64,000 bases of DNA. It comes from Clostridiaceae bacterium (GTDB taxonomy: Bacteria; Bacillota; Clostridia; Saccharofermentanales; DTU023). Both the position numbers and the translations under genes were made by a program. Below the pieces are notes generated by a model. It made no database searches. It was not told the DNA's origin and saw nothing but the letters and a program-made list of their open reading frames with translations. The stretch spans positions 1-64,000 of the forward strand of contig DUVH01000016.1 of assembly GCA_012841145.1 (NCBI GenBank), written 5' to 3'. Below are positions 1,840 through 25,531 of the stretch, one piece after another (position 1 is the stretch's first letter; the number at the start of each line of letters is the position of its first letter).

Positions 1840-3150
1840 TTAGACTTCAAAAATCGTCTGATCGTCGACCTCTGTGGACAATGCCTCAAGAGCCTTATCG
1901 ACCAGTTTGCGCCTCAAAGCGTATTCGTCATCAAAGGGGAGTTCCGGATTGCCCAGCGGGTGCGGAATCGCGATTGCCGGGACGATACGGTTCGCGCCGA
2001 CTGTCATCGAGATCGGGGTGACCGTACAGATGTGCACCACGGGGATGCCTGTTCTTTCGATTTCTTTGACCATTGTTGCACCGCAACGTGTACAAGTTCC
2101 TCAGGTCGAAGTGAGAACCACGGCATCTACATCGTAGTTGTGAAGTTTCTCCGCAATCTCGGCAGCATATTTCTTCGCTGAGGCGACGGCGGTTCCGTTA
2201 CCGACGGTCGAGTAGTACCAGTCGTGAAGCTTGCCGATTTTTCCTTCTTTTTCGTACTGACGGAGAACGTCGACAGGGATGACGCGGTCGGCATCCTCGT
2301 TGGCGTACACAGGGTCGTGACCGCCGTGAGCCGTTTCGTATGTCTCTCCTGTCAGATCGTCGACGCCTTCAATATTATAACTTCCATATTTCGATGCGGA
2401 AGAGCTCTCGATACGATCGGGGTTGCCCTTCGGGACGATACCGCCCGATGTCACGATGGCGATGTTCGCCTTCGTCATGTCGACGATGGCGGGCATCGGG
2501 GGCACGCGATCGAACGTGGGCATGGGATATTCCGTTTCGAACGGTTTGCCGGCGATTTTTTTGAGCAGCATCTCGAGAGCGCGCGTGCTTCCGCGTTTCT
2601 TATCGAAGAAGTTTCTGCGGACACCGTCAGGGATGTATCCCTCTTCGACGGATGCGCCGATGCGCTCGCCCTTGACGAGTTTGAGTGCGAGCTTCGCCAT
2701 CACGGGGACGGCTTTTCTCATGCCAGCCGCGCTGTTCGCCGTGGAGACGATCAGGACTTCGGTGCGGAACATGTCGGCGCCGGGGTTCTCAATGTACATG
2801 CCGGTCAGGACGGGAATGCCGAGTTCTTTCTTGACTGCATCGCAGATGGTGCCGCAGGCAACGCCGTAACGGCCGGCGTTAAAGGCGGGGCCGGCGATAA
2901 ACAAGTCGGGGGATTCCTCCTTGACCATGTCGAGAACCGTTTTTGTGGCGAGCTCGAGATTCTCATTAAACCAGGAGTCTCCGCACACGATCGTCGCGAC
3001 GATTTCCGCTTCATCACCGAACTGCTTGGAAAAAGCCAAGCCGGGACCCGCGGGCCCCATACGCTTTTCAGCCGGGATATGCGCCATTTCCTCGCCGCCG
3101 ACTTGGCCGAAGAACTGGTTGATGTAATGGACAACTTTAAATTTGCTCAT
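1840..3150 (-). CDS. grdB: Glycine (or sarcosine/betaine) reductase component B gamma subunit, selenoprotein with in-frame UGA at 2101-2103
   Basis: ORF 3150..2101 ends ...DAVVLTST-UGA; the same frame continues GTCTRCGAT then ORF 2073..1840 (MVKEIERTGIPVVHICTVTPISMTVGANRIVPAIAIPHPLG). Together 436 aa, the GrdB architecture ST-U-GTCTRCGATMVKEIER. Confidence 0.93.
2075..2087 (-). promoter_or_regulatory. SECIS-like hairpin downstream of the grdB UGA
   Basis: Minus strand UGA GGAACUUGUACAC GUUGC GGU GCAAC: perfect 5-bp stem with a GGU loop starting 13 nt after the UGA, the position expected for a bacterial SECIS. Confidence 0.6.
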
Positions 3151-19124: not shown

Positions 19125-21110
19125 TTATAAGTCGCTTATTTGCAGGACGCTTTCTTCTATTGCAACTTCAACGACAGCGCTTCCCCAACGCGCTAAAGAT
19201 CGTTCAAATACCGGCTCAGCAGTCGTCAGGTCGATAGTCCAGCAAGAGTGTCCTTCCAAATCTTTCGTCGTGACGAACTCAAGTTCGATCCCGGTTGACA
19301 ACTCTCTCACGCGAGTCGGATTGTTTTCGATGTGATAGAGCCGGAGCTTCTTGTTTCCAGGCAGGCGTCTTAAGTGAATGTAGGCGCGATGTTCTTTTCC
19401 CGTCAGATAAAAATCATCCTGCTCATAGGGATAATCAGGGCAGGATGATGTTCCGTAAAATGCGTCGCCGTACACGCGAAGAAATTCTCCCGTCTCATTC
19501 AATGCATCGAGAGACGGTTTCGGTATGGCGCCGGTCTCGTCGGGTCCGATATTGAGAAGCATGTTGCCCCCTCGGCTGACGACCTTCGTTAGCTGGTGAA
19601 TGACATCTCGTGCCGTGCGCCAATTTTGGTCATTTCTTTTGTATCCCCACGAGCTGTTCAAGGTGGCGGGAATTTCCCATAGTTTTACTTGTGAAGCACT
19701 TGGCAGCATGTTGTCGCCCGTCGTAATATAGTCTCCAAGGCCGTATCCGATGCGCCCGGAAATGAGACAAGTCGGCTGCAACGAACGGATAAGGTCTTTG
19801 ACCCGACGGCATTGTGCGGGAGTCATGGAGATCGGAGTGTCAAGCCAGATCATCGCGAGCGGTCCGTACCGCGTCAAAAGTTCCCGCAATTGCGGAAAGC
19901 ATTTCTCTTCCAAGTATTGCTCGAACAGCGGTGCGGGCGGCGCTTCCCGGTAGGCGCGCAGTCCCCCCGGATGATCCCAATCTTGTGCTTGCGAGTAGTA
20001 GACGCAGAAGGGCAAATCATATTTTGCGCACGCTTCCGACATTTCGCGGACGAAATCGCGCCCGGAAGGGCTTTTTGCGACGCTGTTAAAGGAATCAGTC
20101 GATGAATCGAACAGAGCGAAGCCGTCGTGGTGTTTCGCCGTAAGGCAGATGTATTTCATGCCCCAGGAACGCGCGAGTTCGCAGATGCGGTCGGCGTCAA
20201 AAGCTGTTGGGTTGAAAGAGGCCGCCAAGCTTCGGTATTCATCGTCAGGAATATCGAGTGTGAGCCGGATCCACTCCGCCAAAAAGGGCGTTTCATTTCC
20301 TTTGTATTCGCCGCCGAGAAGAGAATAGAGTCCGAAATGAACAAACAGTCCGAATCCTGCTTCCTTGAAAGCTCGACGTGCCTCGTCAATCGAGTTATCT
20401 TCTAATACTTGCCCGATCTTATCACGCGCATCGTGACGGCGGACAATTTCAACGATTTCCTTCACGCTCTCCGCATCAATGGGGTTCGATGCATTGCCGA
20501 ATCGCAATGCCGTTCCGATATGAAGATCCATATCCTTCGACGGAAGTGCTTGATAAATGTGCTCGATGTTGCTGTGCGTGATCCCGCTTCCTAAAATCAG
20601 CTTCGGTCGCGCGTGCTCTAAATACCACGGTAAGCGATCGAGGTTTTGGGCAACGCTCCCTCGCCCCAGCGATGTCAGGATGTGCGTGATGCGCGGGTAG
20701 CCGTTGATGCGCTCGAGAGAGGCTGCAACATCGGAGCTATCATCAATGGCACGATGAAAGGTAACGTCAAAATCCGTTCCCTCAAGCACGTTTGAGAGTG
20801 TCGCCACATCGGCGATTCCATCCTCATCGAGGATGCCCGTCACGACGTGCTGAACGCCCAGTTCCTGAAATCGCAGGGCATCTCGCCTCATCACGGATAA
20901 TTGGTGCTTCGAGTAGTGAAAGGAATCTTGTTCGGGGCGCAGCATGACGGCGACGGGGATGCGGACGGACTCAAGGACTGCTCGTATGAGACTGTCGCTC
21001 GGCGTGAAGCCTCCGCGCTCAAGGCACGAGACGAGCTCGATGCGATCGCCGCCGTTTGATTCAATGGTGATCGCATCGGATAAGCTTGTGGCAATACATT
21101 CGAGAATCAC
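19125..21110 (-). CDS. Fusion protein: N-terminal CutC-family TIM barrel plus C-terminal GH29 alpha-L-fucosidase
   Basis: aa 1-225 resemble CutC (GGDRIELVSCLERGGFTPS, PVAVMLRPEQDSFHYS, DVTFHRAIDD, ILTSLGRGSV, LILGSGI); the rest resembles GH29 (GFGLFVHFGLYSLLGG, YICLTAKHHDGFALFDS, PFCVYYSQAQDWDHP, GPLAMIWLD). One uninterrupted 661 aa ORF with GTG start. Confidence 0.85.
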   Translation of the reverse strand: MILECIATSLSDAITIESNGGDRIELVSCLERGGFTPSDSLIRAVLESVRIPVAVMLRPEQDSFHYSKHQLSVMRRDALRFQELGVQHVVTGILDEDGIADVATLSNVLEGTDFDVTFHRAIDDSSDVAASLERINGYPRITHILTSLGRGSVAQNLDRLPWYLEHARPKLILGSGITHSNIEHIYQALPSKDMDLHIGTALRFGNASNPIDAESVKEIVEIVRRHDARDKIGQVLEDNSIDEARRAFKEAGFGLFVHFGLYSLLGGEYKGNETPFLAEWIRLTLDIPDDEYRSLAASFNPTAFDADRICELARSWGMKYICLTAKHHDGFALFDSSTDSFNSVAKSPSGRDFVREMSEACAKYDLPFCVYYSQAQDWDHPGGLRAYREAPPAPLFEQYLEEKCFPQLRELLTRYGPLAMIWLDTPISMTPAQCRRVKDLIRSLQPTCLISGRIGYGLGDYITTGDNMLPSASQVKLWEIPATLNSSWGYKRNDQNWRTARDVIHQLTKVVSRGGNMLLNIGPDETGAIPKPSLDALNETGEFLRVYGDAFYGTSSCPDYPYEQDDFYLTGKEHRAYIHLRRLPGNKKLRLYHIENNPTRVRELSTGIELEFVTTKDLEGHSCWTIDLTTAEPVFERSLARWGSAVVEVAIEESVLQISDL

Positions 21111-21455
21111 GGGTTATCTTCTCCTATAGCACGTTCACCTGCAAGCTCCACCTCGACGCCCTGTTCACTGATCTGATAAACGATCTCTTGTTCAGTTTGA
21201 GGATTGTTTGCGTCGTTCACGGCGGTTTCTCCCGCCGTGCAGGAACATGTTTGTGATCAATGGATAGTAGAACTCGCCTGCTTTTATCGCTTCGCGAAAT
21301 CCGAGTGGCGTGAACGCGTACCGCTGTAAGAACTCGTACAAGTGCAGCGGATCGAGCGTCTGCTGATAGATAAAAACCGCGACGTTGAAAATAATAAGAG
21401 CAACGGTGATGACAGGAATTCTGTGGCTCGGTTGGCTATCTCGCAGCGGCAGCAA
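21108..21455 (-). pseudogene. Truncated rhomboid-family protease remnant (N-terminus only)
   Basis: MLPLRDSQPSHRIPVITVALIIFNVAVFIYQQ...FYYPLITNMFLHGG is a rhomboid N-terminus; the core TM/catalytic region is absent after FLHGG. Confidence 0.7.
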
Positions 21456-24592: not shown

Positions 24593-24811
24593 ATCATAGT
24601 GCTTTGCGCATTAACTGTCAACCCGTAATGCGTATAATTTTCACGAATTTGTGTATTATTTTACTTATTATTAGCAGCACAGATGTACTCGTTGTATAAT
24701 AGAAAAGACCGGTAATCACACCGTTCATCGACAAAAAGCATCATGAAAAACATCGATAGAATTGTTCAGCCTCGGCAGTCGTTTCAGACATCAACAGAGA
24801 CAGGAGCCGTT

Positions 24812-25531
24812 ATGACCATTCAACACAAAAAAGAAAGAAAATATGTCCCCGAGATTACGTCGCCGCTTCGCGGAGACATCATCAAAATGCCGGGGGTCAT
24901 CGCCGAATGTTCAGGTATTCGCATATACGGGAAGCGCATTAAATCGATTATCTTTACGACAGATGCCGCACAGGCAATCAACCACAATGCCGACGCTCTG
25001 ATCGCCGTTTATCCGTTTACACCGCACCCCGCCATTACGAGCGCGATTATAGGGATCTCGCCGGTGCCTGTGTTTGCCGGGGTCGGCGGCGGAACGACGG
25101 GAGGCAAGCGATGCGCGCAGATCGCGATGTTCGCCGAATCGCAGGGCGCCGTCGGCCTCGTCGTCAATTCACCGACAACGCTCGAAACCATACGCGACAT
25201 TAAGGCCGTCGTCGATATACCGATCGTCTGCACCATCGTAACGGAGTACATGGACATCGAATCGAGAGTCGAAGCAGGTGTTCAAATATTCAATGTGAGC
25301 GGAGCGGATCGTACCGTTGATATCGTGAAAAGCATCCGCACACGTTATCCGACGATCCCCATCATTGCGACAGGAGGTTCAACGGACGAAACGATACTCA
25401 GGACGATACAGGCGGGCGCTAACGCCATCACGTATACGCCTCCGACGAGCGCCCAGCTTTTCAAGCTCAAAATGGATAAATATCGAAAGATGGCGCAAGA
25501 CGAATACGAGAGTAGGCACCAACTGAGTTAA
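24812..25531 (+). CDS. Uncharacterised TIM-barrel-like protein
   Basis: ITSPLRGDIIKMPGVIAEC, VFAGVGGGTTGGKRCAQIAMFAESQGAVGLVVN, IPIIATGGSTDETI. ATG 24812 has an AGGAG RBS; ORF start 24743. Confidence 0.6.
   Translation: MTIQHKKERKYVPEITSPLRGDIIKMPGVIAECSGIRIYGKRIKSIIFTTDAAQAINHNADALIAVYPFTPHPAITSAIIGISPVPVFAGVGGGTTGGKRCAQIAMFAESQGAVGLVVNSPTTLETIRDIKAVVDIPIVCTIVTEYMDIESRVEAGVQIFNVSGADRTVDIVKSIRTRYPTIPIIATGGSTDETILRTIQAGANAITYTPPTSAQLFKLKMDKYRKMAQDEYESRHQLS

Follow-up and report, generated by a model that had tools for sequence, protein, structure and literature searches.

A CutC–GH29 fusion in one genus of Clostridia suggests an amino-sugar role for CutC

Introduction

CutC proteins occur from bacteria to humans under a copper name that rests on indirect phenotypes, and we know of no reaction for any of them. 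The other half of the protein described here belongs to the GH29 alpha-L-fucosidases, among which the alpha-1,6-fucosidase AlfC of Lactobacillus casei is part of the alf-2 route for Fuc-alpha-1,6-GlcNAc-Asn, together with the glycosylasparaginase AsnA2 and the ROK kinase SugK; the cluster also includes the M20 peptidase gene PepV, the 1-amino-GlcNAc is taken to decay spontaneously, and the fucose is excreted by L. casei (PMC6960285). As described, alf-2 has no cutC and CutC has no place in that scheme, yet various subsets of the GH29, glycosylasparaginase, M20 peptidase and ROK genes that alf-2 holds together recur around many CutC genes. Here we analyse a 64,000-nucleotide stretch of contig DUVH01000016.1 from a Clostridiaceae bacterium (the window), in which a single gene joins CutC to GH29. 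No relevant report of such a fusion, or of a linkage between CutC and glycan genes, was found in the literature searched.

Results and discussion

Architecture of the fusion protein

The fusion gene lies on the minus strand (19125–21110) and encodes 661 residues in a stop-free frame running from a GTG start (21110) to a TAA stop (19125), with a Shine-Dalgarno sequence, AGGAGAAG (21118–21125, minus strand), read seven bases before the GTG. The first-pass annotation had taken this single open reading frame for a complete CutC domain followed by a GH29 fucosidase, and its coordinates and length are right; both domains are matched in Pfam far above the cut-offs, CutC (PF03932) at the N-terminus over residues 3–188 (123.6 bits against a cut-off of 23.3, E = 9.5e-36, profile positions 3–190 of 202) and Alpha_L_fucos (PF01120) over residues 240–549 (247.9 bits against 25.2, E = 2.5e-73, profile positions 22–345 of 345). 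Combining Pfam, alignment and a structural model (md2644c024fe6), we assign residues 1–225 to the CutC domain (20436–21110, minus strand), which is followed by a linker placed by alignment, residues 226–239 (20394–20435, minus strand), where pLDDT drops to 64. The GH29 catalytic domain, delimited by Pfam and by alignment with AlfC, occupies residues 240–549 (19464–20393, minus strand), and the GH29 part ends in a beta-rich C-terminal domain, residues 550–661 (19128–19463, minus strand), identified from the secondary structure of a second model (md3fb08c6dc78). For the whole protein, AlphaFold2 (mean pLDDT 89, mostly 96–98 in the CutC part) yields two distinct, confidently predicted domains, comprising two barrels and the C-terminal beta domain.

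No sugar operon surrounds the fusion gene; around it lie genes for an FAD oxidoreductase, Fur and rubrerythrin and the remnant of a rhomboid protease gene. This remnant (21192–21455, minus strand; 87 residues, without a Pfam match) corresponds to a gene found ahead of the fusion in sister species, where it encodes 220 residues at one locus (L003), and the window copy is about 390 bases short relative to another (L004). Further along, the gene at 24743–25531 (plus strand), whose TIM-barrel-like product matches NanE at a sub-threshold level (E = 0.0008), has also stayed close to cutC in sister species. Near the start of the window, an Rfam SECIS_4 element (2063–2100, minus strand; 56.6 bits) stands directly behind a 349-residue open reading frame (2101–3150), which may therefore read on across an in-frame UGA and encode a selenoprotein.

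The GH29 domain

The GH29 part aligns with L. casei AlfC (PDB: 6o18) over residues 248–532 (E = 6e-69). In this alignment AlfC D200, D242, R229, E39 and E274 correspond to D424, D466, R453, E279 and E479 of the window protein, all five of which are invariant in five aligned fusions. The residue equivalent to the AlfC nucleophile, D424 (19839–19841, minus strand), is an aspartate in 21 of 21 GH29 rows, while D466 (19713–19715, minus strand) is the presumed general acid/base. Mutation of AlfC at any of these five positions left no measurable activity in a screening assay (PMC7718225), and since all five are kept, the GH29 half should be an active fucosidase, although both this activity and its linkage are inferred. 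The two proteins differ in that AlfC lacks both the C-terminal domain (PMC7718225) and the CutC part, and the alpha-1,6 specificity of AlfC may or may not extend to the related domain of the fusion. The nearest stand-alone GH29 relatives, from two genomes (G050 and G016), are 50–51% identical and their genes sit behind sugar or peptide ABC transporters.

The CutC domain

Modelled alone, the CutC part reaches a pLDDT of 96.7, and among solved structures it comes closest to CutC of Bacillus anthracis (PDB: 4r9x; TM 0.90, 36% identity); the first 19 PDB matches are all CutC entries (TMq 0.78–0.90). The window domain has the full domain, the fold and all invariant residues in common with this Bacillus/Clostridium-type CutC, and differs from that type in being fused to GH29, in carrying valine at one of the proposed copper-site cysteine positions, and in its divergence, scoring 107 bits against the equivalog cut-off of 311 for NF008603. 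Ten residues never vary in 44 diverse CutC proteins (E4, E25, T36, P37, R58, F64, G92, A121, G176 and H197) and six more are near-invariant in the family (Y66, H119, R120, D123, T146 and S147). Every one of them is kept in the window protein; its genus has TSLG where most CutC proteins have TSGG. Structure prediction to look for conserved active sites, a check proposed in the first-pass annotation, gave two confident domains, each with its conserved residues in place.

In the model, most of these conserved residues lie where the strands of the barrel end on the C-terminal side, or close by, which is where TIM barrels hold their substrates. Matches to the HisF and PRAI profiles were weak and not significant; fold matches to PdxS and MfnB (TMq up to 0.74) suggest at most a barrel of sugar-phosphate type. 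At positions 5 and 27, the sites of the cysteines proposed as copper ligands of the human protein, cysteine occurs in only 6 and 11 of the 44 proteins, respectively, and the window protein has C5 and V27, so that conserved copper-binding cysteines were not found across this set. This variability, beside invariant barrel residues, speaks against CutC being a copper-handling protein as annotated, with the fusion and its neighbourhood incidental. In favour of that reading, human CUTC binds Cu(I), weakly and at one ion per monomer, and worm and human cells become more sensitive to copper when CUTC is lost (reviewed in PMC11083455). The cutC region of Escherichia coli also encodes the sRNA MicL (PMC8216713), which confounds deletion phenotypes. 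Genomic neighbourhoods bear on the same question and are considered below.

Distribution of the fusion

The fusion was found in six species of one genus, that of the window genome and five others. Unbroken fused frames of 672, 666, 663 and 734 codons are present in four separately assembled genomes (G009, G001, G007 and G004, respectively), and these four proteins align with the window protein from end to end at 58–80% identity; a further contig, DUNG01000041 (L032), encodes the same fusion in 665 residues. Across the five aligned fused proteins the linker varies from roughly 15 to 85 residues. The AS-numbered isolates among these records are anaerobic-digester assemblies. The fused copies with public titles come from metagenome-assembled genomes, labelled Clostridiaceae or Petrimonas, which might raise the suspicion that assembly or chance read-through has joined two genes. 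However, six species share the fused frame, their linkers differ in length, and where aligned the proteins show such identity from end to end; this rules out an assembly or frameshift artefact, and we give that explanation practically no credence. The first-pass statement that no frameshift separates the two parts is thus upheld by an uninterrupted frame here and in five other species.

Three further species of the genus (G003, G012 and G010) have CutC without GH29, and in two of them (G003 and G010) rubrerythrin adjoins the stand-alone CutC, as it does beside the fusion in G007. The CutC tree does not discriminate between a single gain followed by loss and two gains (support 71/20). It could be supposed that the fused CutC domain is by now non-catalytic and helps the fucosidase to oligomerise or to hold its substrate. 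Oligomers are indeed formed by AlfC and other GH29 enzymes (PMC7718225), human CUTC is reported to be tetrameric (PMC11083455), and the TSLG variant of the genus also speaks for such a role. Yet the fused domains retain all invariant barrel residues, and CutC is kept in three sister species that have no GH29 attached to it, which makes a purely structural role unlikely.

Outside the genus, no CutC–GH29 fusion was found in 148 genomes of the order, in a 399-genome sample of the phylum or, within GTDB genomes, at the 80 closest CutC loci. A long CutC frame in one genome (G466) merely reflects an early start, and one CutC copy in another (G060) sits in a 389-codon open frame.

Separate CutC and GH29 genes as neighbours

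Survey of separate genes, which the first-pass annotation had proposed alongside that of fusions, revealed that the two are also associated beyond the genus. In five of the eight order-level genomes having both (G019, G028, G039, G042 and G046), CutC and GH29 lie no more than two genes apart, with a chance probability of about 5e-9 if 1% per genome is assumed, and CutC adjoins GH29 in five Paenibacillus-type loci (L101, L103, L109, L111 and L130). Gene order differs between clusters: peptide ABC transporter, M17 aminopeptidase, CutC, ROK and GH29 in one (L146), peptide ABC transporter, GH29, CutC and a transglutaminase-core protein in a second (L158), and sugar ABC transporter, GH29 and CutC in a third (L154). 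The transglutaminase-core protein, of about 900 residues, is found beside or near CutC in three order-level genomes (L158:10888–13638, L157:11538–14189 and L153:7047–9716), in two of them near GH29, its core having been recognised by Pfam on L158. No solved relative of it was found in the PDB, and it is a candidate for a peptide:N-glycanase-like enzyme.

CutC neighbourhoods across phyla

For the phylum we used an evenly sampled set of 40 CutC loci, counting as near those genes within three genes and on the same strand. By this measure 18 of the 40 CutC genes are near NagA, NagB, ROK, glycosylasparaginase, PTS or GH29, and the other 22 have none of these neighbours. For the five main families, 27 matches are near and 4 far (four to nine genes away; p = 7e-9), in a test that ignores kinship on samples that include related genomes. 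Across all loci, glycosylasparaginase occurs near CutC 20 times and far from it once. When 106 close CutC neighbours were scanned with Pfam, the picture was the same, with NamZ muramidases in addition; Cu_amine_oxidN1, which appears in the list of commonest neighbour domains, is part of the NamZ proteins. At three loci (L112, L113 and L115; NamZ identified by Pfam on L112) CutC has NagA, ROK and a NamZ exo-muramidase gene close by, which links it also to the recycling of peptidoglycan sugars.

Similar surroundings are seen in annotated replicons. In Hymenobacter the glycosylasparaginase gene overlaps cutC by 4 bases, an overlap met twice in such replicons, with GH92 nearby. Close to cutC in six Alphaproteobacteria are genes for GH20, NagA, NagB, ROK, SIS or MurNAc-6-P etherase; the neighbours are ROK and peptide ABC genes in Palleronia, and a BadF-type ATPase with sugar genes in two records from Pseudoalteromonas. 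The surroundings of cutC in Parabacteroides, Cetobacterium and Enterococcus hold no such genes. An M81 (MlrC-type) metallopeptidase gene lies beside or near cutC in both Bacillota and Alphaproteobacteria (L132, L133, L152 and L160, and plasmids L176, L178, L179 and L185).

In the scan of 106 close neighbours, the 25 commonest families include none that handles copper, and a heavy-metal-ATPase-like gene, named by eye from its sequence, lies within six genes of CutC at only four loci of the subfamily. Taken with the variable cysteines, this makes a copper function distinctly improbable. The carbohydrate-related role that the first-pass annotation had proposed for CutC is, by contrast, well supported by the fusion itself, by the adjacency of CutC and GH29 outside the genus, and by GlcNAc and N-glycan neighbours in Bacillota, Bacteroidota and Proteobacteria.

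The window genome and the alf-2 route

The window genome (G000) encodes NagA (C31:28317–29426, 310 bits) and a ROK protein (C3:26629–27570). Neither glycosylasparaginase (PF01112) nor L-fucose isomerase was found in it or in seven sister genomes, absences that are provisional in a genome 91% complete, yet recur in each of these eight members of the genus. With no glycosylasparaginase found, the window organism appears to lack a complete alf-2-like route. Given both absences, the substrate is here more likely to be a fucosylated GlcNAc oligosaccharide than an Asn-linked stub, and the fucose, for which no isomerase was found, would be excreted or otherwise used, and may leave the cell. Within the genus NagA is present in all five fusion genomes and in four of nine others (p = 0.06); an exact co-occurrence of NagA and the fusion had held for eight genomes and weakened on the addition of six more. 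In two fusion-bearing sister species (L192 and L193), nagA stands in divergent orientation to a group of genes that includes ROK, Gfo/Idh-type and NanE genes (NanE assigned by eye), a possible amino-sugar or sialic-acid locus.

The lack of a fucose isomerase means that released fucose must have another fate, and could be read to mean that the CutC domain itself acts on the L-fucose freed by GH29, for example as a mutarotase or isomerase replacing FucU or FucI, as might also be suggested by direct fusion to a fucosidase and the recurrent adjacency of the two genes. However, CutC genes with informative neighbours are mostly near GlcNAc genes rather than fucose genes, and in G050, source of the closest stand-alone GH29, a ROK gene follows GH29 and FucI is close by, but CutC is elsewhere. 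We therefore consider action on fucose unlikely. The first-pass suggestion that CutC acts on a product of the hydrolase stands in part: an aryl product is unsupported and a fucosylated product is possible, with the neighbours favouring the amino-sugar (GlcNAc) side.

Putative role of the fusion

In our working model, which we regard as evenly poised between right and wrong, the fusion is a bifunctional cytoplasmic enzyme that degrades a fucosylated GlcNAc-containing oligosaccharide or glycoconjugate stub, its CutC domain being a second enzyme and not a copper protein. The cytoplasmic location is suggested by the absence of a leader before CutC. The GH29 domain would remove L-fucose by the customary retaining mechanism, with D424 as nucleophile and D466 as acid/base, and the CutC domain would process the amino sugar of that substrate, either in place or once released and possibly phosphorylated, the fusion coupling this step to fucose removal. 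We place CutC on the amino-sugar side because gene kinds like those of alf-2 surround it, while it is itself absent from alf-2. Its product would be handed to the ROK kinase and NagA route encoded in the genome, and the presence of both genes supports the sugar end of the proposal. CutC is thus probably an enzyme of amino-sugar or glycan catabolism; its exact reaction is a matter of speculation, the likeliest chemistry being at the anomeric carbon, such as glycosylamine hydrolysis or anomer interconversion.

It is conceivable, if somewhat short of an even chance, that CutC proteins as a whole family are enzymes for amino sugars in the breakdown of glycans and peptidoglycan, working on the anomeric carbon of sugars of the GlcNAc type (for instance in clearing the glycosylamine released by glycosylasparaginase), that the copper label is misassigned, human CUTC included, and that the fusion bears witness to this link. 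Together with the recurrent clustering of CutC with GH29, glycosylasparaginase, NagA, NagB and ROK in at least three phyla, the fusion leads to a short list of candidate substrates. If the proposal is true, a very widespread family would be renamed, and a step so far overlooked in the catabolism of N-glycans or amino sugars might be filled in.
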